Shown here in pieces: positions 7,394-20,682 of a DNA stretch of 20,862 nt. Within the stretch, counting starts at the first letter, position 1. Each line of letters opens with the position of its first letter. The notes under the pieces were generated by a model. The model saw only the letters and a list, made by a program, of their open reading frames with translations, was not told the DNA's origin and did no database searches. The stretch lies in IMG/VR virus record IMGVR_UViG_3300010392_001058, positions 1 to 20,862 of that record; one strand, 5' to 3'. Source of the stretch: a virus. The translations under genes and the position numbers were made by a program.

Positions 7394-7646
7394 ATCCTTT
7401 AGGTGTTGTGTTTTTTGTTTCTGTTGTTATTCCTTCAAGTAGGTTTCTTTCTTCTTCTATTTTTTTTACTATTTCAAATGCATCCATAATACAAAGTTTT
7501 TTAGTGGCAGCTGCATTTTTTAATCTATCAGCGGCTAATTCATCCTCGGCATCAAACTTAATAATATCTTCTTTAGCCACCTTAACTAATTGTTTTACAG
7601 CCTTTTCCCCAGCTTCTATTATTTGTAACTTTAATTCTTTATTCAT
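7371..7646 (-). CDS. Small helical protein upstream of terminase, 91 aa; possible small terminase subunit
   Basis: Unrecognised protein, predicted mostly helical. The N-terminal part is Lys/Glu-rich (LQIIEAGEKAVKQLVKVAKEDIIKF, given here in pieces: residues 7-16 LQIIEAGEKA and 17-31), followed by ADRLKNAAATKKLCIMDAF (about 39-57) and a second charged helix, then a polar tail rich in Thr and Ser. It overlaps the co-chaperonin-like gene by 8 bases and the terminase start by 23 bases, so translation of the three is probably coupled. The position just before the large terminase and the small helical fold make a small terminase subunit possible, but I see no helix-turn-helix motif that would confirm this. 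Another packaging or head-assembly factor is equally possible. It is well supported as a gene by its place in a gapless operon. Confidence 0.75.
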   Translation of the reverse strand: MNKELKLQIIEAGEKAVKQLVKVAKEDIIKFDAEDELAADRLKNAAATKKLCIMDAFEIVKKIEEERNLLEGITTETKNTTPKGFAESRSK

Positions 7647-8208
7647 TTAGTATAGTTGTTAAATTATTAGTAAACATTCGATAAAGCAATTCACCATCTA
7701 CAGTAAATTCATATTCGCTTTCAGGTTGATATACAACTACATCTCCAACTGAAAAGCCTAAAGATATTAATTCTTCGTTGATATATTTTATAGTTCCTTG
7801 TAGCCTTTCATATTTAGCACCCTTTTCTAAAAATGCTTTTTTTGCTAATAGAGGTTTTATAAAACAATACTTGCCATGAGACTTCCACCCATCTTTATTT
7901 TTAAATAAAAAAAACTGATCGTGCTCTACAAAAAACAAGTTGTCTTTAAAAAAACTTCTACCGCTTTTACGTCTACCATACATATCATTATAAAACTTAA
8001 ATACATTATGATGAACTAAAAGAGTATCACCTTTTTGCACTTCACCCTTATAATTTAAAGGTAATTCTTTTACTATTCCAAATCTATTTGATGCTTTATG
8101 GTCTTCTTCAGATACGCTAGTTATAAACTGTGTGTCACCAAATTCTTTTATATTATCATATCTCCTGTTGTTTACAGGCTCTACAATAAACGAGTGCACC
8201 GACCTCAT
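7639..8208 (-). CDS. GroES-like co-chaperonin with two Cpn10-type domains, 189 aa
   Basis: Probable phage co-chaperonin that would cap host GroEL during folding of a phage protein such as the capsid protein. Two halves each read like a GroES barrel. The first (about 1-103) has FIVEP near the start, then FGIVKELP (43-50), VQKGDTLLVHHNVF (57-70) and a closing strand DQFFLFK. The second (about 114-189) has CFIKPL, LQGTIKYI, then SVGDVVVYQP (153-162) and a Cpn10-like ending with VDGELLYRM and a hydrophobic last strand. GroES itself is about 97 aa, so 189 aa fits two copies. The mobile loop that binds GroEL would be about 15-42 in the first half. A frame from 8265 adds 19 residues, but the ATG at 8208 forms a TAATG junction with the 74-aa gene and gives a GroES-like N-terminus, so I prefer it. 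The similarity is by eye. Confidence 0.68.
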   Translation of the reverse strand: MRSVHSFIVEPVNNRRYDNIKEFGDTQFITSVSEEDHKASNRFGIVKELPLNYKGEVQKGDTLLVHHNVFKFYNDMYGRRKSGRSFFKDNLFFVEHDQFFLFKNKDGWKSHGKYCFIKPLLAKKAFLEKGAKYERLQGTIKYINEELISLGFSVGDVVVYQPESEYEFTVDGELLYRMFTNNLTTILNE

Positions 8209-8432
8209 TAAAAGTTTATGTTGTATTCTAAAGTTATTGGAAGCGTATACAAAAACTCTTTCCATATTAAAACTTCCTGATCTTTAATAACCCAAAGTTT
8301 ATAGGATTGTGTCTCTTCGTTAGCTTGTATTAAATGTATTTTGTAATCTCCACCTAAGACTGGTTGATTTACTATATAGTGCATAGATCCTGATTTATAA
8401 TCAGATCCAACTGAAATTTTTCTAATATCCAT
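8208..8432 (-). CDS. Conserved small phage protein, 74 aa, function unknown
   Basis: Compact soluble protein with no signal peptide or membrane segment, probably all-beta or alpha/beta. It has the pattern KISVGSDYKSGSMHYIV (residues 5-21), then VLGGDYKIHLI, a Tyr/Trp strand (YKLWVI), a Trp-Lys segment (IWKEF) and the ending LEYNINF. I recognise this pattern as a recurrent hypothetical protein of marine phages, usually close to structural and packaging genes; its function is not known to me. Its stop overlaps the co-chaperonin ATG as TAATG, and its own ATG lies 6 bases after the stop of the 44-aa gene, with an A-rich leader. This indicates a cotranscribed set. The regular Trp/Tyr spacing suggests a small binding domain, but that is a guess. 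Confidence 0.82.
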   Translation of the reverse strand: MDIRKISVGSDYKSGSMHYIVNQPVLGGDYKIHLIQANEETQSYKLWVIKDQEVLIWKEFLYTLPITLEYNINF

Positions 8433-8582: not shown

Positions 8583-11500
8583 TTAGGTTGCTAATAATAT
8601 ATTATAGTTTACGCCATTAATTCTAACTGGCCATTTATGTGTTGATGCTGTTGCTACTGATGACGCAACAACACCTAAATTTTGTGTATTAGACCCGAAA
8701 GCTATTGTATTAGCAGAAGTTGTTGCCGCACTTGTTCCTATTGCTACAGAATTTGCAAATGTTGCTTGTGCTCCAAATCCTATTGCTATTGAGTTGTCAA
8801 CACCTGCCCCTGAAGATGCGTCTGAATTTTTACCAATAGCTATCGAGTTTTCACCTTGTGCTATTGCTGATGTACCTATTGCAATTGTACCACCTTCTAT
8901 TACAGAACCAGTAATCCCTGCGGATTGATATCCTATTGCTATATTCCCTACGCCTGATCTAGTTATATTTGAATAAACCGCAGCAGTACCCTCTGCTTGA
9001 TATCCTACTGCAATACCAAAAGTTGATGTGTTGTATGTTTCGGTTTCTGTAGTTTGATCACCAATAGAGGCGTAAGCCCCAATAGCAACTTGTCCTTCTC
9101 GTGCACTACCACCACCATTAGCCATGGCAAATGCCCCTATACTAACATGATCACGACTATTACCACTTGAACGGAAATTATCATAACCCGCACCTGAAAA
9201 CATACCTATATAAACACCATTTCCTTCATTCGTTGATGATGATGCTTTAAATTGTTTAGCACGATCTCCTATAACAACGTCCCCACGATTTTGTTGATGT
9301 GGGTTTGTGCTAGTACCAGCCATAGAAAAACTACCAATAGCAATTCTATTTTCAGCATCTGCTGGGACTCCTCTATTTCCTAAATATCTAGCCGCATTAG
9401 TACCTATCATAATATCAACAATAGGCTGAGCGTCTCTTCCTGCTAAATTTCCTATTGCTAAATTGCTACTCGTATTAACAACGGTAAATAGTGCGTTTGT
9501 ACCAATAGCTATATTGTTAGATGATGTTGTAGCATTATACAGGGCTAAATCTCCTATGGATGTATTATTAGCTCCTGTTGTCAGGGCCCTGTTAGTGTCT
9601 TCACCTATACCTATATTATGTAAACATAGTGCATCGTCATAGTTCCATCCATTTCCATAAGCACCTATTTTTATATTTGTACTACCTGTTCGTGCTATTA
9701 ATCCTAAATCACCCCCTGTATTATCTAAAAGAGTTATTCCATTGATTGGTGTGTTTGCTAAAGCATTTGTGCCTACTGAAATAAAAGATCCAGTAAAAGT
9801 GCTTGAGGTTCCATTTGAAACAACTTCGTTAATGGTACTAGAATACATTGTTAGATCGTCCTCAAATCTACCTATACTTCTTATATTAGAAACTCCACCA
9901 AAAGAACTTACATCTGTTCCCGATAATCCTCTCCATGTTGTAGTTGTTACTGTTCCTGTAGCTCCGACTGAAGCAACTGTTAGTGTAGCTAAAGTAGTTC
10001 CATAATTAACTGTTAAAGTATCACCTACTGTCCAATCTTTACCTCCACCATAAACTTGTATACCTGTTATCTCTCCTGATCCCCCCACACTCGTAACTCT
10101 TATTATTACACCAGTAGCTGTTCCGATAATAGAAGAAACTTTTGTAGTTGGATAGTAATTATTAGCAACATATCCTGTACCAGCCGCAGTAATAGTCGCT
10201 GTAACTACCGCTCTAGTTCCTACTGTTGAATCTGCATTACCATTTAATGTAATATTACCTCCAAATGAATTTACTTGAAGAACACCTGTGTTACTAATAG
10301 TTATTGTTCTAGTCCCTGGTGTGCTTACTGTACTGATACCATTACCACCAACAATATTTACTGTTTCTCCGTCAGCAACTGTTCCAGGCCCACCTGTGTC
10401 TCCATCAATATTCCATGATGTCATATTACCTCCTGCTGCTTGAGCCACCCATTCCATATACCCACCGTTTGTGCTGTTAAACGCAAGAATCTGTCCTGCT
10501 GTAGCTACCGATGGTGCGGCTGTTGTTCCTAATACAAATGAATTATTTGTTGTTCCGTTTGAGTTTTGAATAGTTAAAGCTGTGTCCAGTAATGTACCGC
10601 CTTTGGTAGCAACAACTTGAATAGTTGGTGTTTCGGTAGATAATTTTATAGACGTACCTGTAACGGCAGACGTTGTTCTTAAATAAGTAGCAGTTGCAGC
10701 CTGCTCAGCAAAAGTAAATGTGCCTGAGTTTGTAATTGCAGTTCCAGCAGTACCAGTAGAGTCAGTTAAAGAAATACTTTGAACCGTTCCTGTTCCTGAG
10801 CCAGTAAAATTTAGCTCTATATTATTACTTCCAGCGTTAGTAAACACAGCACCTCCGCCTCCTTGTAATGTAAACGAGCTAGAATTAGTCCCATCTGAAT
10901 TTGTTACAGTTATTAAGTTCCCTGCATTAGTTACAGCTAAATCCCAGTCAGCTCCTTTAGGAGTTGAAAATCTACCCGTTTGATCATAGTAAGTTCCTGT
11001 AGCAATTGCATCTACCTCAATAATTAAATTATTATCTGACCCACTTTGATTTACTCTAAATGTATCTCCTGATACATAGCCAGATCCTCCAGCAGTAAAT
11101 GCTAAATCAGCTAATACTACACTACCAGCAGTTGTATTTGTTATGCTTACTATTATTCCTGAACCACTTCCAGTTACGGCTGTTGTTGTTAGTCCGTTTG
11201 CAATTGCATAATTTGTTCCTGTAGTGTTGTCATCATAAAAAGCTGTTGTTAATCCACCAGGCCCTGTTGCAACCGTTCCTGTTGTTATTAATTGAGAAGA
11301 AACTATTGGTGTAGCTGGAGCTGTAGCATCTACAGAAGTATCAATATATGTTGTGTCAGCTACGTTTACAGCCGTTACGGTTCCTGTACCTGCACTTGCC
11401 CATGTAGGGAAACCTGCTGGCCCTCCCGAAATTAACACCTGACCTAATGTTCCTCTATCTGTATTTAACTCTATAAATGCATTTGCTGCTAATTTTAATC

Positions 11501-12557
11501 CTCCACCCGCTAAATTTATATCTCCTGTTAAGGTTATGTTTTGTGTTGCTGTATTACCATTATCTAATACTTGCTGAAGAGTTTCGTTTATTCCAGAAAC
11601 TGTCTGCCAGGTGGGTGTTACAAAAGGCCCATTAGAAACTAAAGCCTGACCAGCCGTTCCTGAACTTCCAGCCAATAATATCTGACTATTAGCACCAGAC
11701 AAGCTTATTGACCCTTGACTTATTATTAATCTTCCTTGTGTTGCTGAAGCTGTTGGCGTTCCATTACCATTAAAGTTTATAACTCCTTGTCCTGTTATTG
11801 TATTAGTTCCACTTAATGTAATCCCACCAGTTCCTGTAAAAACTATACTACTATTTAATAAAGTATTACCAGCTGTTACAACTTGTTGTAGGGTTGGTGT
11901 TGTAAGTGTTCCCGCACTACTCCAAGCCAAACCATTAGCCGTTGCACTTAAAAACTGTCCAGGAGTACCATACACATAAGTTCCTGTTCCATCATCTATA
12001 CCTATTTGTGACTGATCACTAACTTTTAAATTTACACCATCACTTAAAGTTACATTGCTATAAAATATAGAGGTACCACTAACAGATAAAGTTGAATTAC
12101 CTAATAAAGATAATCCACCGCCTGTTTGAATTGTAAATGTTCCTGTTAAATTTGGATTTGCCGTTGCAACTGGGCTTACAGCTAACGTATCGTTCCATGA
12201 CTGAGTTGTTCCTGGTGCTGCTATCCAAGCTAATCCTGTTCCTGTAGAACTTAATACTTGACCAGCCGTACCATGTGAACCTAATCCACCAGCCGAAATT
12301 GTTGTTGGGAATATATCTATTACAGATATACTTGATCCTAATGCAGAGGCGTTTCCATTTAATTCTATATTAAGCAATGAGGTGTTCCCCACGCCTAATA
12401 CAGAATTTAAATCTTGATTGACACCTCCTCCGCCACCTAATGAGCTAACTGTAAATGTTACTGTCTTTTTGTTATCGCTAACATCTGTTCCAATAATTAA
12501 ATCATTAGATGCTGGTGTTACCGTAGGGTAAGCAGTAGTATTTTTTATTTTAGCCAT
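8583..12557 (-). CDS. Giant tail fibre with YadA-head-type beta-roll near the C-terminus, 1324 aa
   Basis: Long fibre that probably reaches and binds the host surface as a trimer. The N-terminal 40 residues (SNDLIIGTDVSDNKKTVTF) resemble the N-terminus of the 240-aa protein and probably anchor it to the virion. A Gly/Thr/Ser-rich shaft follows, with at least four copies of a GT-GQ-L...W motif (for example GTAGQVLSSTGTGLAW) and stretches like TLQQVLDNGNT. The module at 714-758 is shared with the other two fibres. Residues about 981-1290 form 17 short repeats around IAIG or VAIG, the pattern of YadA/Hia head beta-rolls. The tip (HKWPVRINGVNYNILL) is a typical fibre ending. I see no intramolecular chaperone (S74 peptidase) domain and no signal peptide, so this is not a bacterial autotransporter. 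It starts 10 bases after the stop of the 90-aa gene. Confidence 0.85.
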   Translation of the reverse strand: MAKIKNTTAYPTVTPASNDLIIGTDVSDNKKTVTFTVSSLGGGGGVNQDLNSVLGVGNTSLLNIELNGNASALGSSISVIDIFPTTISAGGLGSHGTAGQVLSSTGTGLAWIAAPGTTQSWNDTLAVSPVATANPNLTGTFTIQTGGGLSLLGNSTLSVSGTSIFYSNVTLSDGVNLKVSDQSQIGIDDGTGTYVYGTPGQFLSATANGLAWSSAGTLTTPTLQQVVTAGNTLLNSSIVFTGTGGITLSGTNTITGQGVINFNGNGTPTASATQGRLIISQGSISLSGANSQILLAGSSGTAGQALVSNGPFVTPTWQTVSGINETLQQVLDNGNTATQNITLTGDINLAGGGLKLAANAFIELNTDRGTLGQVLISGGPAGFPTWASAGTGTVTAVNVADTTYIDTSVDATAPATPIVSSQLITTGTVATGPGGLTTAFYDDNTTGTNYAIANGLTTTAVTGSGSGIIVSITNTTAGSVVLADLAFTAGGSGYVSGDTFRVNQSGSDNNLIIEVDAIATGTYYDQTGRFSTPKGADWDLAVTNAGNLITVTNSDGTNSSSFTLQGGGGAVFTNAGSNNIELNFTGSGTGTVQSISLTDSTGTAGTAITNSGTFTFAEQAATATYLRTTSAVTGTSIKLSTETPTIQVVATKGGTLLDTALTIQNSNGTTNNSFVLGTTAAPSVATAGQILAFNSTNGGYMEWVAQAAGGNMTSWNIDGDTGGPGTVADGETVNIVGGNGISTVSTPGTRTITISNTGVLQVNSFGGNITLNGNADSTVGTRAVVTATITAAGTGYVANNYYPTTKVSSIIGTATGVIIRVTSVGGSGEITGIQVYGGGKDWTVGDTLTVNYGTTLATLTVASVGATGTVTTTTWRGLSGTDVSSFGGVSNIRSIGRFEDDLTMYSSTINEVVSNGTSSTFTGSFISVGTNALANTPINGITLLDNTGGDLGLIARTGSTNIKIGAYGNGWNYDDALCLHNIGIGEDTNRALTTGANNTSIGDLALYNATTSSNNIAIGTNALFTVVNTSSNLAIGNLAGRDAQPIVDIMIGTNAARYLGNRGVPADAENRIAIGSFSMAGTSTNPHQQNRGDVVIGDRAKQFKASSSTNEGNGVYIGMFSGAGYDNFRSSGNSRDHVSIGAFAMANGGGSAREGQVAIGAYASIGDQTTETETYNTSTFGIAVGYQAEGTAAVYSNITRSGVGNIAIGYQSAGITGSVIEGGTIAIGTSAIAQGENSIAIGKNSDASSGAGVDNSIAIGFGAQATFANSVAIGTSAATTSANTIAFGSNTQNLGVVASSVATASTHKWPVRINGVNYNILLAT
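8688..9617 (-). repeat. YadA-head-like repeat block within the 1324-aa fibre
   Basis: Coding repeat of about 310 residues containing 17 occurrences of the core (I/V/L)-(A/S/M/V/G)-(I/V/F)-G, mostly 14-20 residues apart but with longer insertions (for example after GDRAKQF and around YNTSTFG). In bacterial trimeric adhesins this pattern gives a left-handed parallel beta-roll. The spacing is regular at the end (IAIGTSAIAQGENSIAIG) and looser at the start, as if the older repeats have diverged or gained surface loops. Confidence 0.8.
10284..10418 (-). repeat. Copy of the shared SW-GD-GG fibre module (1324-aa fibre)
   Basis: A 45-residue module (residues 714-758) with pattern SWNIDGDTGG, then VADGETVNIVGGNGI, then RTITISNTG. 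Similar modules occur once in the 736-aa fibre and four times in the 878-aa fibre. It probably forms one beta-solenoid or beta-prism unit of the shaft. Confidence 0.65.
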
Positions 12558-12904: not shown

Positions 12905-13792
12905 TTATGGTACGTTGGTTGTCCATGTAGGAGTATTGACTCCTGTTCCATCAAAGGAATTTGCAGAACTATCATCGTATGATGTACCAGTTCCCTCATT
13001 AAATCTCATCCAAAACTGTAAATTAGATGATACTGAATAACTTCCTGTGTTTACAGATAAGTCTATTGGTGATCCACTATTATAAATAGCATTCATATTT
13101 GTGTCATTTAAAGCAGTATTCCATATTGCTGCATTATTTATTTCGCCATCAAAAACATTAGATAAATTTGTTCCCGCTCTTTGCCAAGCCCCAAGATTTG
13201 AGTTACCACTATATGCTAAATTCATATTTGCATTTCCAGAATTTATATATGTACCTGTGTATTCAGAACCATTAATATACATTTTCCAAGTTGTATTATC
13301 ATCATATCCATTTGCAGGAACAACAACCCCTAAGTGATACCATTGACCTGAAGATATTGTTGAGTTTTGTGTACTTTTAGTTATACGATTAGCTGTACCG
13401 CCACCAGGAGAACTACCATTTAAACCAAAGAAATGAAATACAAATTTACCAAATCTATTCACTAACATATTTATACCGTAGTAACTTGTAGTCCCACTAA
13501 CCCCCAAAGAAAACATAGTAAAAGAAGTTGTAAAGTCGTCAATATACACCCATGATGTCCAGGTGTAACCGTTAGCATTAATTTGAGTCTCTGTTGGATT
13601 TAAAACTGTATTTTGTTGATTTCCTAAAGATATATATTGATTAGAGCCATTACCTTCTATTGAATAATCTACAGTGAATGCTGCGGCAGCATCTATATTA
13701 TTTATAGCCTCAATATCTCCAGCCAACTCAATAGTGTTAACCTCTTGTATTAAATCAGTAGCTGTATCGTTAAGCTTTGCAATAGTACCCAT
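12905..13792 (-). CDS. LamG/concanavalin-A-like lectin protein, 295 aa
   Basis: Probable carbohydrate-binding structural protein of the adsorption apparatus. After a short helical N-terminus (1-40, with NTIELAGDIEAINNIDAAAAF) there is a LamG-type jelly-roll domain (about 44-285). It has GSNQYISLG (50-57), WTSWVYID (78-85), GQWYHLGVVV (149-158), WKMYINGSEY (169-178), FDGEINNAAIWNTAL (214-228) and the closing strand LQFWMRFNEGTGTSYDDSSANSFDG in pieces (258-266, 267-282). These are the standard signature strands of the family. The N-terminus is probably the virion anchor. There is no signal peptide, so it acts on the virion rather than being secreted. The ATG follows the 736-aa fibre stop by one base, so the two are translationally coupled. 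The lectin may bind surface polysaccharide; the ligand cannot be read from the sequence. Confidence 0.85.
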   Translation of the reverse strand: MGTIAKLNDTATDLIQEVNTIELAGDIEAINNIDAAAAFTVDYSIEGNGSNQYISLGNQQNTVLNPTETQINANGYTWTSWVYIDDFTTSFTMFSLGVSGTTSYYGINMLVNRFGKFVFHFFGLNGSSPGGGTANRITKSTQNSTISSGQWYHLGVVVPANGYDDNTTWKMYINGSEYTGTYINSGNANMNLAYSGNSNLGAWQRAGTNLSNVFDGEINNAAIWNTALNDTNMNAIYNSGSPIDLSVNTGSYSVSSNLQFWMRFNEGTGTSYDDSSANSFDGTGVNTPTWTTNVP

Positions 13793-13793
13793 G

Positions 13794-16004
13794 TTATGCT
13801 AGCTCTATAAACGTATTGTCTGGATGAAAGAATATTTGTCCATTTGAAGAATCTATTAAGGTACCTACAATTCTAACATATTTACCTGTACCTGAAGGTG
13901 GCTCTACCACTAAATTACCTGCGGTTAATGAAAGATGTAGTATATCTCCATCATTTCCTGGGTCATAATTTAAAGTATACATTCCTCTAGTTAACATCCC
14001 CACACTACTAGATGTTCCGCTTCCACAGGCAATAGCTAATAAACCTATACTTGTAGCCTTAGCATCCGCATCAGTAGCAATCCAGTCTCCACCAGAATAA
14101 CAATAAACTTTACCTTGCACAACAGTTGTTCCTCCTAAATAAACTCTTTCTCCTTGAAATAATCCCGAACTGTTTCCTGTTTTTTCTAATTGTGTATTAG
14201 CATTCCAAGTTCCTGTAGTTACCCCTCCACCTGCACCATTCGTAGACTCTGTCTCAGTCAAGTTAGGAAGATTTGTTATCTCTGTTTGATTTAGATTAAT
14301 AACAGGATCAGCAGCTGTTCCTGCTAAATTTAAAGGAGTACCCGTTCCAGTGTTTGAAACACTAACTGAGGTTACCGTACCATTATTTAAAGCTGTTACA
14401 GTAATATTTCCAGAAGAAGTAATAGGTGAATTAGAAACACTTATTCCTGTACCTGCCGTTATTCCTACTGAAGTAACTGTTCCTTGAGGAGCTAGAGAGG
14501 TTATTTCTTGTATTTCATATGCTCTTGTTTCTCCCGAACTACTAGAATCTAGCCCAATCATTATAAGATCATTTTCGTCTGGTGAGCCTGTACCTCCAGG
14601 ACAGTCTGCGATTATTCCTGTTGTGTCATAATCTACAGCTATCGTACCTGATGTATTTATATTACCCCCTGTTAATCCTGCTCCTGCGGTTACTTGTGTA
14701 ACTGTTCCAGCTCCAAATGGTAAAGCACTAATGGTAGCTTTTTTTATAGTAGTATCAGTTGCGTCAGAAAACCATATGGTGTCTGCTGCAACAGGTGCTT
14801 CTGATGTTGCTACTAAAATTGCATTATCAGCACCTGAATAATCAATATTTACAGTTGGTGTAACTGAAGCACTTCCTGATACCGATATTCCTGTTCCTCC
14901 TGAAACTGAAGTAACTGTACCTACTGTTAAATTACCTAAAGATAAATCTCCTAATATTACTTGAGAAGACGTTCCAGCACCAGCAATATTTATAGTTCCT
15001 GAAGCGGTTACTGGCGAGCCAGTAATTGTTAAAGCACTACCAGTTTCTGTAATAGAAACTGAACTTACTGATCCGTAATTTTGACTAACTACCCATGCAG
15101 TAGATGCCGCAAAAGTAGTATTATCTGACAATCCTCGTGTACCAACATCGGGTACTGTTCCAAATGTTTTTGTTCCGTTTATTGTTTGTGCTCCTGATGT
15201 TACAACTACTGTACTATCAACGTCAATAGTTACATTATACCCACTATTTGAAGTGGTAATTCCTGACCCACCTATTAAGTCTATTGTGTTTCCGTCTGAT
15301 ATTGTTTGAGCTGAACCCCCACCAGAATCTGTCTCTATATTCCAAGAGTTCATTGTTCCTGGGCTAAATGTAGCTAAAGACCCATCTCCTCTAATATATT
15401 GGCTTGTTGTTCCTGCCATTGTAATAGCAAGAGTTCCTGCACTTGTAATAGGTGAACCCCCTACAGTAAAAGCATTTCCTGCATGAGTAAGTTCTACACT
15501 TGTTACTGTTCCATTTCCTGTTCCTGCTCCAATATCACTTCTTACTTGTGCAGCAGTTCTTGACACAACTAATCCGCTAGATTGAGTTAAAAATACTGAT
15601 GCCGCCGAACCTAATGCCGATATTGTGTTTATTGTTAATGATCCACTAACTGTGCACCCAGCTCCTGTTGTTTTAAATCTTATACCACCATTAGCATATA
15701 ATGTTACAGCACTGTTTCCTCCTACATAATTACTTGCCTGTATAAAGGTTGCCATAATATCATTAACACCCTCTATTCTTGTTTCGGTAGCTTGTATGTA
15801 TATCGGTCTTGGATTGGGATCATCAGGATCGGAACTTGCAAACTTTGTAGCTGTAATATAGTTTATATTAGAAGTTCCACCAGGAGCGTCATGATAAATA
15901 GTAAAGTCTGGCACTTGATTACCACTGCTTCCTGGGCCGCCATCACCCATTTTAATTTTGGCATTATCACAATACCAACTATTTGTATTTCCATTACAAG
16001 GCAT
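13794..16004 (-). CDS. Tail fibre, 736 aa, with Gly/Thr-rich shaft
   Basis: Fibre or spike protein. The N-terminus (1-110) is distinct from the other fibres, with two early Cys (3, 12), a Gly-rich stretch and IYIQATETRIEG, and is presumably the attachment part. The shaft is built of repeats: FLTQSSGLVVSRTAAQVRSDIG (about 138-159, in pieces), the GTVTSV motif about five times, the GSPITSAGT type (183-191), and one shared SW-type module (220-264). The C-terminal region (about 626-736) is non-repetitive, with VVQGKVYCYSGGDWIATD, then GMLTRGMYTL and a final beta part ending NTFIELA, and is probably the receptor-binding or trimer-locking tip. No enzyme motif is seen. It is preceded by a 77-base gap with a promoter-like element inside a large inverted repeat, and followed after one base by the lectin gene. 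Confidence 0.82.
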   Translation of the reverse strand: MPCNGNTNSWYCDNAKIKMGDGGPGSSGNQVPDFTIYHDAPGGTSNINYITATKFASSDPDDPNPRPIYIQATETRIEGVNDIMATFIQASNYVGGNSAVTLYANGGIRFKTTGAGCTVSGSLTINTISALGSAASVFLTQSSGLVVSRTAAQVRSDIGAGTGNGTVTSVELTHAGNAFTVGGSPITSAGTLAITMAGTTSQYIRGDGSLATFSPGTMNSWNIETDSGGGSAQTISDGNTIDLIGGSGITTSNSGYNVTIDVDSTVVVTSGAQTINGTKTFGTVPDVGTRGLSDNTTFAASTAWVVSQNYGSVSSVSITETGSALTITGSPVTASGTINIAGAGTSSQVILGDLSLGNLTVGTVTSVSGGTGISVSGSASVTPTVNIDYSGADNAILVATSEAPVAADTIWFSDATDTTIKKATISALPFGAGTVTQVTAGAGLTGGNINTSGTIAVDYDTTGIIADCPGGTGSPDENDLIMIGLDSSSSGETRAYEIQEITSLAPQGTVTSVGITAGTGISVSNSPITSSGNITVTALNNGTVTSVSVSNTGTGTPLNLAGTAADPVINLNQTEITNLPNLTETESTNGAGGGVTTGTWNANTQLEKTGNSSGLFQGERVYLGGTTVVQGKVYCYSGGDWIATDADAKATSIGLLAIACGSGTSSSVGMLTRGMYTLNYDPGNDGDILHLSLTAGNLVVEPPSGTGKYVRIVGTLIDSSNGQIFFHPDNTFIELA
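15213..15347 (-). repeat. Copy of the shared SW-GD-GG fibre module (736-aa fibre)
   Basis: Residues 220-264, SWNIETDSGG, then ISDGNTIDLIGGSGI, then NVTIDVDST. It aligns by eye, position for position, with the modules in the 878-aa and 1324-aa fibres, including the GG-x-GI core. Confidence 0.65.
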
Positions 16005-16081: not shown

Positions 16082-18718
16082 TTAAAGTATCTCTGTAATC
16101 ATTACTCTTGCTTCATCTGTATCTAAAGCATCTACAGTAGTAATAGTAATCGCTGATGTTGAGGTTCTTTCAACTCCACAAAACAAATCATCAAAAGGAG
16201 ATTCGTTACGATAAATTTGAACCATTACATCTCTTGTTCCTAAATTGTGAGTAACAGTGTATGATGTTGCCGAGCCGTTACCAATATTTGCTACTGCATT
16301 ATGATTGTTTCCAATACAAGTTGTAACTGCTTGACAAAAGTCTGTTATTTGTGACGCTGGTATTGCAATAGTATTTTCTGACATTGCAGTCACAAAACCT
16401 TTAGCGTCAACCGTTGCATTTAAAGATTTAGTTACACCACCGTATGATGCTGCTGTTACACCAGAGTTATCTATTGTTACAAATCCATTTGCTGTTACTC
16501 CAAAGTTTGCCGAATCAAATCCTGCAACCCCTTTTGCTGTTGCACCATCAGTTGCTCCTGCTCCTGCAATGTTTTCGTCAGCTATAACAACCGTATAGTC
16601 AGACTTAGCTGGAGATGAACTTGCTGCAATATCTGAATTTGCAAATAATAAATCTCCTGGTTCTAATTGTGTACTAAAGAATGCTGAACCTGCTACAGTA
16701 ACTACAAAGAAGTCACCATTATTTAAGGCTACGTTGGCAGCTCCAGATAATGCAGGAGAGTTTGTACTTGCATTATATCCTCCTTGAAATGCTCCTACTC
16801 CTCCAACTTGTGCTAATACATAAGCTTTCGAAGCTGCATCTGTTGAAGCAGAAGGTGTTGTTGGTACAGTTACTTGACCAGCAAAAGCCGATTGACCTGT
16901 TCCTGTTACATTTAATGCTCCTGATGTTTCTATTCCTCCAGTACCTACATTTAAACTTGTTGTAACTGTTACATTACTTGGTAATCCAATAGTTATATCA
17001 CCACCGTTACCTGTAGATGGTGTTGTTATTTCAATCTCCGAAGTTGTTCCTGAGAATTTTGCAGTTGTTGTTGAACCTCCAGAAGAACCTACTAATGATA
17101 ATGTAGACTCGTTAGAAGACACAGCACCTACACTTAATGCATACTTTGCATCTGTATTACTAACTGTGTTAGTTATTGTTACTGATCCTGTTGAACCACT
17201 AACACTAATTCCTGTTCCAGCTGAAACTGCCGTTACACCTGTGTTGGATATTGTTACGTTTCCTGTTGCACCACTTACACCAATACCTGTTCCTGCAACA
17301 TTACTTAATACACCATCATTTTGTATATCAAGTATAAATCCATTAGAACTTGTAGTAATACCTGTTCCTCCTTGGAATGTAGCTGTTGAACCCGCTGTTA
17401 CGTTTGCTGAGGTACCACTGTCTCCTGTTAATTTCCAACCACTGTATACAGTAGGTGATGTTGGCATTGTAACAGTCTTTAAGTTTAAGGCTGTTAAATG
17501 ACCTGTAGAATTTGTAGTAACCGAATCAACTACGTCAAAAGTCCCTGCTGAACCTGGTGACGATGAACTTGAGGTATCACTTCTTGAAGTAGTGTCGTGA
17601 GAAAGAGTAACTGTTCTTGTTCCACCAATACTTCCACTTATATATGTGCCACCAACAACATCTACTACTTGACCATTACTAACTGTTTGATTTGATCCAG
17701 TTGTTGAACCTATAGTCCATGATGTCATTGTTCCTGCACCACCATTAGATGCGGCAGTTATTCTACCTTGTGCATCAACCGTAAAGTTAGCCGAAGTATA
17801 AGAACCAGCAGTAACCGCTGTATCATCAAGAGTAATTGTTAAAACATCTGTTGCAGCAGCTGCTGTAGTAAGACCTGTTCCTCCTGTAAAAGTTGCAGTG
17901 TTTGTGTCACTTATAGTTTGTGATCCTGTATCTCCAGCCATTGTCCATGAAGACATTGAGCCAGTTGGGCCTGTATAAGCAATAGTTACCGCTCCAGTTG
18001 CACCACTTACAGATATATTAGATCCAGCTACTGCCGAAGTTACACCTGTATTAGTTAAAGTCATTCCTGACGCAGTAGTTGCAGTTCCAATACCTGTTCC
18101 TCCTGCAATATCTACAGTTACTCCATTTGTAACTGATAAATTAGATCCTGAATCACCTTGAAGAGTCCATGAAGTATATCCACCTGGAACAGATGCCCAT
18201 ACATTATCACCTCTCAAGAAAGTAGAACTACTTGGAGAACCAGTTGCTGATAAATCTATGGTTCCCATAGTTACAGCTCCTGTAGCACTAGAGTTTGCAG
18301 TTCCAGCAGAAACAAATGTTCCGTTAGCATTAGTAAATGATGTTACTCCTAATGTAGCCGTTCCATTTGATGCGGCTGTTACAATACCCTGTGCATTTAC
18401 AGTAATACTTGCGTGAGTATATGATGCAGCTGTAACACCAGAGTTTGGCATATTAACTGATATTGTTCCGCTACTTGTTATTGGTGAACTACCAATAGTT
18501 AGGTAATTACTAGACACCCCAACAGACGTTACGGTACCTGCATTACTGTCTAAAGTAATCCAATTAGAGCCATTATAAAATTTAAGAACATTAGAGTCTG
18601 ATCTATATATTAACTGACCCTCTCCAGTTACGGATGGATCAGAAGTTACGTTCTGTACTTTAAAGTTTTGTAGCTCTGTATTATTGAGCGAGACATTTTG
18701 TAAAAAATTAATTGCCAT
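16082..18718 (-). CDS. Tail fibre, 878 aa, modular, with a beta-rich receptor-binding tip
   Basis: Probable main tail fibre. The N-terminus (INFLQNVSLNNTELQNFKV, then GQLIYRSDSNVLKFYNGSNW, residues 3-53) is the common fibre anchor pattern. The shaft holds GTVTSVGVSS...SPITSSGT (61-85) and a repeat with AQGxxTAASNG (about 95-119 and 302-326, degenerate at 754-780). Four copies of a 43-45-residue module begin at 183, 257, 333 and 427 (for example SWTMAGDTG...FTGGTGL). VPTTPSASTDAASKAYVLAQV (618-638, in pieces) is a widespread fibre motif close to the trimeric tip. The last 70 residues (TVTHNLGTRDVMVQIY and onward) resemble the end of the 240-aa protein and probably form a beta-sandwich tip. No lyase or peptidase motif is seen. 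Its ATG lies 20 bases after the outer-membrane protein stop. Confidence 0.87.
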   Translation of the reverse strand: MAINFLQNVSLNNTELQNFKVQNVTSDPSVTGEGQLIYRSDSNVLKFYNGSNWITLDSNAGTVTSVGVSSNYLTIGSSPITSSGTISVNMPNSGVTAASYTHASITVNAQGIVTAASNGTATLGVTSFTNANGTFVSAGTANSSATGAVTMGTIDLSATGSPSSSTFLRGDNVWASVPGGYTSWTLQGDSGSNLSVTNGVTVDIAGGTGIGTATTASGMTLTNTGVTSAVAGSNISVSGATGAVTIAYTGPTGSMSSWTMAGDTGSQTISDTNTATFTGGTGLTTAAAATDVLTITLDDTAVTAGSYTSANFTVDAQGRITAASNGGAGTMTSWTIGSTTGSNQTVSNGQVVDVVGGTYISGSIGGTRTVTLSHDTTSRSDTSSSSSPGSAGTFDVVDSVTTNSTGHLTALNLKTVTMPTSPTVYSGWKLTGDSGTSANVTAGSTATFQGGTGITTSSNGFILDIQNDGVLSNVAGTGIGVSGATGNVTISNTGVTAVSAGTGISVSGSTGSVTITNTVSNTDAKYALSVGAVSSNESTLSLVGSSGGSTTTAKFSGTTSEIEITTPSTGNGGDITIGLPSNVTVTTSLNVGTGGIETSGALNVTGTGQSAFAGQVTVPTTPSASTDAASKAYVLAQVGGVGAFQGGYNASTNSPALSGAANVALNNGDFFVVTVAGSAFFSTQLEPGDLLFANSDIAASSSPAKSDYTVVIADENIAGAGATDGATAKGVAGFDSANFGVTANGFVTIDNSGVTAASYGGVTKSLNATVDAKGFVTAMSENTIAIPASQITDFCQAVTTCIGNNHNAVANIGNGSATSYTVTHNLGTRDVMVQIYRNESPFDDLFCGVERTSTSAITITTVDALDTDEARVMITEIL
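17312..18172 (-). repeat. Four copies of the shared SW-type module in the 878-aa fibre
   Basis: Modules start at residues 183, 257, 333 and 427 (offsets 74, 76 and 94). Each runs (S/G)W-x-x-x-G-D/T-x-G, then V/I-x-x-x-x, then GG-T-G/Y-I/L, then a final Thr/Ile strand. Between modules lie GTGI-VSGATG-VTI repeats (for example 474-495 and 498-518). Confidence 0.7.
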
Positions 18719-18738: not shown

Positions 18739-19131
18739 TTAAAATTTATAGGTTAAGCTTAATTTAAGTTCTCCTTCACTATCTTCTGATTCCATATCTA
18801 ATAAATAAGAAGGCTCAATATATAGGTTGTCCCAAACATTTAATGCATATCCAACTCCCAAAGACACTTCTTCTTCTTCAGTTATTAATCCATATGCAAA
18901 TAGGTGTTCACCAAATATATATCTTGCTATCAAATTATAATCTTCCCCGTTCATCATTATACCTGCACTTATTTTATCCATAGAGTACATTACTCCTATG
19001 TTATCTGTTAAGTTGTCTAAACTTATTTCTTCTCCGTCTGCTGGTGAACTAATCATGCTAGTTACCATAAATTGTGCTGAAGCTAAAATTGTAAATAAAC
19101 TTAATATTGATGTTAAAAATATTTTTCTCAT
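18739..19131 (-). CDS. Small secreted outer-membrane beta-barrel protein, 130 aa
   Basis: Has a clear Sec signal peptide: basic start MRK, hydrophobic core (IFLTSILSLFTILA) and cleavage most likely after ASA at residue 19, leaving Gln20. The mature part of about 111 aa shows alternating hydrophobic strands, such as NIGVMYSM (44-51), SAGIMMNG, YNLIARYIF, EVSLGVGYALNV (88-99) and NLYIEPSYLL. The last strand, ELKLSLTYKF, ends in a C-terminal Phe, the usual recognition signal for outer-membrane barrel assembly. I count about six to eight strands, so a small barrel. There is no lipobox Cys. In a phage this suggests alteration of the infected cell surface, such as superinfection exclusion or receptor masking. 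Lambda Lom is a small outer-membrane protein encoded among tail genes, a parallel in position but not shown to be homologous. A virion role is unlikely with a signal peptide. Confidence 0.72.
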   Translation of the reverse strand: MRKIFLTSILSLFTILASAQFMVTSMISSPADGEEISLDNLTDNIGVMYSMDKISAGIMMNGEDYNLIARYIFGEHLFAYGLITEEEEVSLGVGYALNVWDNLYIEPSYLLDMESEDSEGELKLSLTYKF

Positions 19132-19145
19132 GTTTTGTTTTTTAG

Positions 19146-19868
19146 TTAGTTAAAAAAGGCCTTTCCTGTTTGTGCCCCGTTAAAAGTTATTGTTACTTGG
19201 TTTAAACTATCATACTCTACATCTCCGTATACTGTTTCTAACGCTGAGTTAACAACAGATACTGACGGATACTTATTTAATCCATGATTTATTACCCAAG
19301 GATTAGCAGCTACATTCTGAGAAAACACATAATTCTTGTCTCCAGAAACAGCTCCGCCATACGTTAGCAAAGATATGAAATAATCTTTATCGTTTTGTAG
19401 GTTACCTGCACCCGCCTTAAATGTAACTCCAATATCAAAAAAATCAGTCTCTACACCATCTTGAGCCGCTGAATTCCAATCATATACACCAAAGTTTGAT
19501 GGATCGTCAGTTTGTGATATTAAAACAACTGAAGATATTAATGGTACTGAGTAGTAGGAAGAAACGTCTATGTTTGATTTTAACATAAACTTACTTAACA
19601 TAAAGGTTGTTAAAGAAGAAAAGGCTGGTGTTCCTGCTCCAGAATTTGAAAATGATATTGTTCCTGATCTTCTTACCTCTCCTGTGTTCCAGTTCTGATA
19701 CTGATACCTTAAGGCGTTACTTTCTATTTTATTATTTGTATTTAAAAATACAGCAATATCGTCAAAAGTAAAATTCTTTGTTGCCATGTCATTAATAGCA
19801 TCACTACCAATTACTTTGTCAGTTCCTACTATTATAGATTGTATTGGATAAGAAGATATTTTTGACAT
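19146..19868 (-). CDS. Short tail-fibre-type protein, 240 aa
   Basis: Structural adsorption protein. Residues 1-42 (MSKISSYPIQ, then DKVIGSDA and NFTFDDIAVF) resemble the N-terminus of the 1324-aa fibre and probably form the same virion anchor. The middle is beta-rich without repeats. The last 53 residues (NPWVINHGLNKYPSVSVV and onward, ending TGKAFFN) carry a W-x-I-x-HGL tip pattern found at the end of many phage fibres, and similar in outline to the end of the 878-aa fibre. With both anchor and tip but almost no shaft, it may be a short fibre, a spike or a fibre-tip adaptor. It begins in a TAATG junction with the holin stop. I see no catalytic motif. Confidence 0.75.
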   Translation of the reverse strand: MSKISSYPIQSIIVGTDKVIGSDAINDMATKNFTFDDIAVFLNTNNKIESNALRYQYQNWNTGEVRRSGTISFSNSGAGTPAFSSLTTFMLSKFMLKSNIDVSSYYSVPLISSVVLISQTDDPSNFGVYDWNSAAQDGVETDFFDIGVTFKAGAGNLQNDKDYFISLLTYGGAVSGDKNYVFSQNVAANPWVINHGLNKYPSVSVVNSALETVYGDVEYDSLNQVTITFNGAQTGKAFFN

Positions 19869-20272
19869 TACTTGTTTTTGATTTTAGTTCCTTTTTCATA
19901 TGAGCGTCCTCCAAAGTATGCAGCAACAACTGTAACTAGCAAAACTTTTAAAAGATCTTTCCACTCATCGTCAACTACAAAGGTAATAAATCCTGAATCA
20001 ATAAAAATAAGCAAGATTGTACTAAAAATCAAAAATATTAAAACAGCTGGTCTAACTGTTTTAGACAAATAGCTGTCTGAAGCCATGTCGCTTTTCCAGC
20101 GTTCTGTTACATTCTTTTGTTCTTCATTAGCAGCGTTATTAAATATCTCTAACATTTCTTTTTTAAACGCTACTTTTTCATCAGGAGTTTGAACAAACTT
20201 GTCAACCACATTACTAACCTTGTCTGCCACTTCCATTCCTGCTGATCCAAATATCTTACTCCATATACTCAT
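19868..20272 (-). CDS. Holin of the GTA/3TM family, 134 aa
   Basis: Probably makes the inner-membrane lesion that releases the endolysin. The N-terminal 70 residues are soluble and helical (SIWSKIFGSAGMEVADKV...; QTPDEKVAFKKEMLEIF). Then comes a hydrophobic helix at about 75-93 (PAVLIFLIFSTILLIF), a short turn with DDEWKD, and a second helix at about 107-121 (LLKVLLVTVVAAYFGG), ending RSYEKGTKIKNK. The RP...  first helix and the YFGGRSYEK end are the hallmarks of the family known as holin of 3 TMs, for gene-transfer-agent release. Only two strong membrane helices are evident, with the N-terminal part possibly amphipathic. It overlaps the amidase by four bases (ATGA), which gives a standard lysis pair. 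The gene looks intact. Confidence 0.85.
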   Translation of the reverse strand: MSIWSKIFGSAGMEVADKVSNVVDKFVQTPDEKVAFKKEMLEIFNNAANEEQKNVTERWKSDMASDSYLSKTVRPAVLIFLIFSTILLIFIDSGFITFVVDDEWKDLLKVLLVTVVAAYFGGRSYEKGTKIKNK

Positions 20273-20682
20273 AATTCATTATATTCTTTTGTTGCATCAA
20301 AACTAGGGCACTCTTTGCTTGAAAAATCTCTATGCCCATAAACAACTGCTTCAGGGTGAAATTTTTTTAAAGTTTTAAGAAGTAAAATTAAAGATTCTTT
20401 TTGTTGATCTGTTCTAGTGTCCTCCCAACACTTCATGTCTTTATCCATCCCACCGATATAACATATTCCCAAACTATCATAGTTATGTCCCGAAACATGG
20501 GCACCATACTTGTCAACCATTCTACCATACTCTATTTTTCCATTTAACCTTACAACAAAATGATAACCTATATCGTCCCAGCCGTTTCCTTTAACATGCC
20601 AGTCTCTAATATCTTCTGCTGAAAAATCTTTATTTCGAGGAGTAGCAGAACAATGAACAATAATTTTTTTTATTGCTCTCAT
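20269..20682 (-). CDS. Endolysin: N-acetylmuramoyl-L-alanine amidase, T7-lysozyme type, 137 aa
   Basis: Cuts the bond between N-acetylmuramic acid and L-alanine in peptidoglycan to lyse the host. A single Amidase_2 domain fills the protein. Zinc ligands are His10 (IIVHCSAT), His117 (YGHRDFS) and Cys125 (KECPSFD). Tyr40 (IGYHFVV) and Lys123 match the catalytic Tyr46 and Lys128 of T7 lysozyme. Other family marks are WDDIGYHF (35-42), GAHVSGHN (60-67) and SLGICYIGG (70-78). There is no signal peptide, so it depends on the holin encoded next, whose ATG overlaps its stop as ATGA. At 137 aa it is close to T7 lysozyme (151 aa) and lacks a cell-wall binding domain, as usual for phages of Gram-negative hosts. 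T7 lysozyme also binds its own RNA polymerase; I see no evidence for that here. Confidence 0.95.
   Translation of the reverse strand: MRAIKKIIVHCSATPRNKDFSAEDIRDWHVKGNGWDDIGYHFVVRLNGKIEYGRMVDKYGAHVSGHNYDSLGICYIGGMDKDMKCWEDTRTDQQKESLILLLKTLKKFHPEAVVYGHRDFSSKECPSFDATKEYNEL

Follow-up and report, generated by a model that had tools for sequence, protein, structure and literature searches.

The window, a 20,862-nt stretch of viral DNA, carries a gene for a predicted small outer-membrane β-barrel whose relatives also occupy bacterial chromosomes. With a probability of about 0.6, we read the protein as a small outer-membrane barrel of a cellular, Flavobacteriales type, carried by phages as accessory cargo (a "moron"), which supplements or displaces the host copy and alters the cell surface. 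Because the barrel occurs in bacteria and is spread among unrelated phages, a role in remodelling the infected cell's surface is probable. Enterobacterial prophages are the main known source of phage-encoded outer-membrane barrels. Here, members of one barrel family were located both on Flavobacteriales chromosomes and in marine phages of several unrelated lineages. Since related phages with and without the gene at the exact site occur naturally, one can test directly why host-type surface proteins are carried by phages. In abundant ocean bacteria, about whose phages little is known, the barrel is a candidate for changing the surface of infected cells.

The window belongs to a phage of marine Flavobacteria, in a podovirus group. 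Its terminase matches phrog_6681, its portal matches phrog_6547, and its relatives by portal are phages of Flavobacterium, Cellulophaga, Maribacter, and Tenacibaculum. The genes follow the order amidase, holin, fib240, barrel, fib878, and fib736 (Table 1). The initial annotation placed the barrel gene between two fibre genes, which is right in substance, as fib878 lies on the 3′ side and the fibre-like fib240 on the 5′ side. Pfam cut-offs were passed by BppL_N in fib736, YadA_head in fib1324, and Laminin_G_3 in a 295-aa protein, and these domains indicate a cluster of receptor-binding type. The length and sequence of fib736 and fib1324 are highly variable between related phages.

Table 1. The barrel gene, its parts, and its neighbours (window positions unless a contig is named).
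Feature	Position	Strand	Basis and remarks
Outer-membrane β-barrel protein gene (predicted)	18739..19131	-	130-aa ORF, ATG start; 66 viral relatives (contigs) and ~50 chromosomal relatives; dN/dS 0.07-0.20
Sec signal peptide, residues 1-19, cleavage ASA^Q	19075..19131	-	Motif invariant in 41 rows; model helix 2-15, low pLDDT
Mature 8-stranded barrel (predicted), residues 20-130, predicted pI ~4	18742..19074	-	AlphaFold2 model, structural matches, alternation, charge
C-terminal β-signal KLSLTYKF, putative BAM recognition type	18742..18765	-	Sequence and alignment
Predicted extracellular loop 1, residues 29-44, conserved	19000..19047	-	13/16 positions invariant in the window's group; sidedness assumed (OmpA topology)
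fib240, upstream neighbour, 14 nt before barrel gene	19146..19868	-	C-terminal domain: phrog_34633 (E=1e-15), function-unassigned phage proteins
fib878, downstream long fibre-like protein, 20 nt after barrel gene	16082..18718	-	phrog_8309 (E=7e-21)
Holin (3 TM)	19868..20272	-	PF11351, phrog_3427
N-acetylmuramoyl-L-alanine amidase (endolysin)	20269..20682	-	PF01510, phrog_822
Fibre cluster	12905-13792, 13794-16004, 8583-12557		Domains Laminin_G_3, BppL_N, YadA_head
74-aa two-TM protein gene	L074 10487-10711; L043 10434-10658; L053 10483-10707		Directly downstream of the barrel gene

The dN/dS values, which come from close phage copies of the barrel, indicate a real gene under purifying selection. 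The leader of the window copy is MRKIFLTSILSLFTILASA^Q. The 41-row alignment of phage and bacterial relatives shows no change at residues A17, S18, A19, Q20, F21, M22, and V23, whereas within the window's group only 5 of the 19 leader positions are constant. A leader that drifts while ASA^Q stays fixed is the pattern expected for a cleaved leader, in agreement with the Sec signal peptide proposed in the initial annotation. There is no Cys anywhere in the protein and hence no lipobox; the ASA^Q cleavage motif is present instead. These features are not those of an Llp-type lipoprotein (no Cys, ASA^Q) or of a spanin (no Cys, predicted barrel).

We ran AlphaFold2 on the window barrel protein with 41 homologues as the alignment. 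The model has eight strands (residues 20-28, 45-51, 54-61, 64-73, 77-83, 89-100, 103-112, and 121-129) with a pLDDT of 83.1 and a pTM of 0.71. In VIA-align, its Z scores were 12.3 against OprF, 11.9 against the designed TM barrel 6x9z, 11.8 against Opa60, 11.6 against OmpA, and 11.2 against NspA, with matches spanning 94-105 residues. Soluble avidins also score Z ~11, and the fold alone is indecisive between a soluble and a membrane barrel. The membrane barrel is preferred because of the leader, the β-signal (the C-terminus reads NLGLSYKF in other copies), and the strands, in which a hydrophobic/aromatic face alternates with a polar/charged face (p=0.001 when residues are shuffled within strands). 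The closed barrel of eight antiparallel strands, the alternation, the Sec leader, and the aromatic C-terminal β-signal are all found together, and the model shows the window protein as a predicted 8-stranded outer-membrane barrel of the OmpA/OprF/NspA type. The earlier description of a barrel with a terminal aromatic strand is supported by this eight-strand model, its Z scores of ~12, and the end LTYKF.

With the sidedness of the loops assumed from OmpA topology, the length variation is mostly in the loops predicted outward (sd 1.1 to 5.5, with loop 2 the most variable), and the periplasmic turns have an sd of 0 to 1.2. Loops predicted to lie at the surface are conserved as well as short, and acidic with 33-44% Asp and Glu; the mature protein has a predicted pI near 4. 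In its modelled form, the barrel has no pore-sized lumen. The barrel gene sits among structural genes, as would be expected if the product were a virion protein with a leader-like N-terminus, but the conserved Sec leader and cleavage motif, the β-signal, and the chromosomal homologues make this very improbable. The signal peptide and the outer-membrane barrel suggest that the protein would act in the cell envelope during infection and not in the virion, as the initial annotation also held.

The OprF N-domain, the OmpA TM domain, NspA, Opa60, and OmpX/Ail share the fold, the strand number, the signal peptide, and the aromatic C-terminus with the window barrel. However, it shows 9-15% identity to OprF, OmpA, NspA, and Opa60, much shorter loops, and no peptidoglycan-binding domain. 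A Pfam search with the window protein gave no match to PF13505 (OMP_b-brl) at E≤1. Relative to the PF13505 cut-off of 28.7 bits, the bacterial copy L122 passes at 35.4, the phage copy L053 reaches 25.6, and several phage relatives also stay below. A PorP/SprF match to the window protein (E=0.03) was likewise below the cut-off.

Lambda Lom is a phage-encoded outer-membrane barrel among tail genes, and the likeness to Lom drawn previously holds for the fold. It does not extend to the sequence, since Pfam gave no Ail/Lom match to the window protein at E≤1 and Ail and OmpX were weak fold matches only. The window barrel also lacks the long loops of Lom and Ail, and its family is not bound to tail genes. 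The cyanophage Phage_OMP (PF24653, phrog_417) is likewise a tiny signal-peptide barrel-like marine phage protein with a similar C-terminal strand; its Syn1 gene is placed in a region of accessory genes and not in a fibre cluster. Homology to Phage_OMP is not supported. The window protein had no Pfam match to PF24653, the L043 copy reached E=0.0075 with 16.9 bits against 27, and the hhalign probability against the Syn1 protein was 0.4%.

Barrel proteins of this kind had been called little described for Bacteroidota phages, which is fair for their function, but Cellulophaga phage barrel proteins are already in databases. Our literature search on phage barrel proteins and phage PA-2 yielded nothing citable. 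A tblastn search with the window copy and a T4-like copy against 50,697 named phages gave no match at E≤10, and the 41-copy profile found no barrel copy in the immuto, elemo, Panino, Manatee Spring, and Syn1 records.

We surveyed 80 viral loci with the amidase as the starting point. The order amidase-holin-fib240-barrel-fib878 is present in 16 contigs among these loci and in the window. The barrel is absent between fib240 and fib878 in L176-L179, L183, L184-L187, L195, and L196, and the gap between the two genes is 9-21 nt at the measured empty sites (L177-L179, L183, L184, L186, L195, and L196). L169 was not counted as an empty site because only the end of the contig accounts for its missing barrel. 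The near-genome-length contigs L183, L184, and L186 (59-63 kb) have no barrel copy elsewhere in them, and fib878 of the 63-kb L183 has the same start as that of the window. Barrel presence is patchy on the amidase, holin, and fib240 tree with at least two changes, and a phage of the same terminase family has the barrel at a different place (L248/L319). These loci show that the barrel gene is an optional accessory insert at a precise site.

The empty sites weaken a role in lysis, in which the barrel would weaken the outer membrane late in infection as a spanin substitute. Such a role would fit the position of the gene in or beside holin/endolysin modules (the window's group and L043-L047) and its sequence distance, which follows the amidase distance best among the genes compared (r=0.77; Mantel r 0.63). 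However, the barrel is missing from syntenic relatives whose amidase and holin are the same, T4-like phages carry it in the head module, bacteria retain it as a chromosomal gene, and a lipobox of the spanin kind is absent. We consider a lysis helper quite unlikely.

The phage contexts of the barrel were read from contigs, which are often fragments, and homologues were found in at least seven of them. Besides the window's podoviruses (context A), the gene lies between the prohead protease gp21 and the presumed scaffold gp22 of T4-like phages (B; L048-L077 contigs), beside a holin, with an M15 peptidase too in L043 and L047 (C), among small genes some kb from a holin (D), downstream of a ribonucleotide reductase gene (E), near a terminase in L041 (F), and in other settings in L052/L053 (G) and L054 (H). 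The initial annotation suggested looking for the gene beside fibres; it is there in the contigs with the window's order, but head, lysis, and ribonucleotide reductase contexts occur as well. The three named T4-like phages that we inspected have no barrel between gp21 and gp22.

A protein of 74-79 aa with two predicted TM stretches is encoded 24-163 nt after the barrel in contexts B, C, F, G, and H (Table 1). Its relatives were found in 68 of 296 Flavobacteriales genomes, some as tandem pairs near polA, and in the bacterial loci examined they sit apart from the barrel gene. We tentatively suggest that marine Flavobacteriales phages share a mobile two-gene envelope cassette, made of the barrel and the 74-aa two-TM inner-membrane protein, both of host type, as a previously undescribed two-membrane system of which the window's group has the barrel only. 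If so, the cassette would move between T4-like and other phage types and act on both membranes of the infected cell.

The barrel profile matched 50 of the 296 sampled Flavobacteriales genomes, nearly always in a single copy, with two of the 50 matches marginal (E near 1e-3). Nearly all of these 50 genomes are 0.8-2.1 Mb. The chromosomal loci that we read have the order hisS, barrel, and Zn-metallopeptidase, or porin, barrel, and alaS. In many genomes (L102-L111) the barrel adjoins a larger porin-like gene (MKKNLRNILALALG...) and alaS, and one bacterial genome has two tandem barrel copies (L108 1501-2415). L112, L114, L117, and L122 have a His/Asp/Glu-rich loop 2 (e.g. HDHAEGDDHSDDE) which looks metal-binding and is absent from the phage copies read.

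The tree separates phage from bacterial copies as two groups (support 89/86), and the identity between them is at most 59%. If the phage gene was acquired from hosts, this would therefore have happened long ago or from unsampled hosts. A cellular origin is favoured because the chromosomal loci are conserved, and transfer in the other direction, from phage to host, may instead have taken place. The bacterial copies resemble the phage barrel in size and charge. This likeness is consistent with envelope upkeep, in which the phage would supply an outer-membrane protein in abundance, or an acidic surface that binds cations, during shutdown of host synthesis so that the cell lasts to the burst. The His/Asp/Glu-rich loop 2 of some bacterial copies and the second host-type membrane protein adjoining the barrel in many phages also point this way, but related phages manage without the barrel. 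We regard upkeep as a possible explanation, although a tentative one.

From its place among these genes, the initial annotation suggested that the barrel blocks or masks the receptor used by the fibres beside it; in this reading, binding or hiding that receptor would give superinfection exclusion. The barrel adjoins genes of receptor-binding type, and receptor-inactivating phage envelope proteins exist, such as T5 Llp acting on FhuA (PMC9586334). The mean barrel distance is 0.17 in the window's group (15 contigs), and the mean distances of fib736 and fib1324 are 0.49 and 0.57 (11 phages). After the amidase, the Mantel correlation with the barrel was 0.48 for fib1324, 0.47 for fib240, 0.46 for holin, and, last, 0.18 for fib736. 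When amidase and holin were allowed for, the partial r of the fibres fell between 0.03 and 0.27. The residual signals of the adjacent fib878 (0.27, p=0.023), the highest, and of LamG295 (0.23, p=0.049) are both weak and could be explained by linkage. Covariation of barrel and fibres as a sign of matching was rejected, as it is largely accounted for by the phage backbone. Masking matched to these fibres is disfavoured because of the little covariation, the non-fibre contexts, and the short, conserved loops, and it is further opposed by related phages with the same fibre order but no barrel, by the tracking of the amidase, and by the cellular homologues on chromosomes. We consider it unlikely; a general effect on adsorption is untouched by these results.

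For our preferred reading, a host-type barrel carried as cargo, the gene order suggests that the barrel would be transcribed late with the lysis/fibre operon. Sec would export the protein and the leader would be removed at the ASA^Q motif, and the β-signal suggests that BAM would insert and fold the barrel in the infected cell's outer membrane. There the phage copy may add to or displace the host's copy, which would result in a changed outer membrane with short, strongly acidic loops. The most likely benefit would be less further adsorption, whether of superinfecting phages or of progeny stuck to debris, and envelope upkeep is nearly as likely.

Lc, an outer-membrane protein of host type carried by phage PA-2, takes the place of host porins and lowers adsorption. 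It belongs to a temperate phage and is a trimeric porin with 16 strands, whereas the window protein is a small barrel without a pore-sized lumen. T5 Llp likewise is made by a phage and acts in the infected cell's outer membrane (PMC9586334). It is an early periplasmic lipoprotein, whereas the window protein is a predicted barrel without Cys in a late-type operon. By analogy, Lc and Llp show that phages alter the host outer membrane to limit adsorption, and they may serve as precedents for the window barrel. Elsewhere in the window, a GroES-like co-chaperonin (phrog_13932) is encoded near the terminase at positions 7639-8265, and it is likewise found in related Flavobacterium and Maribacter phages.
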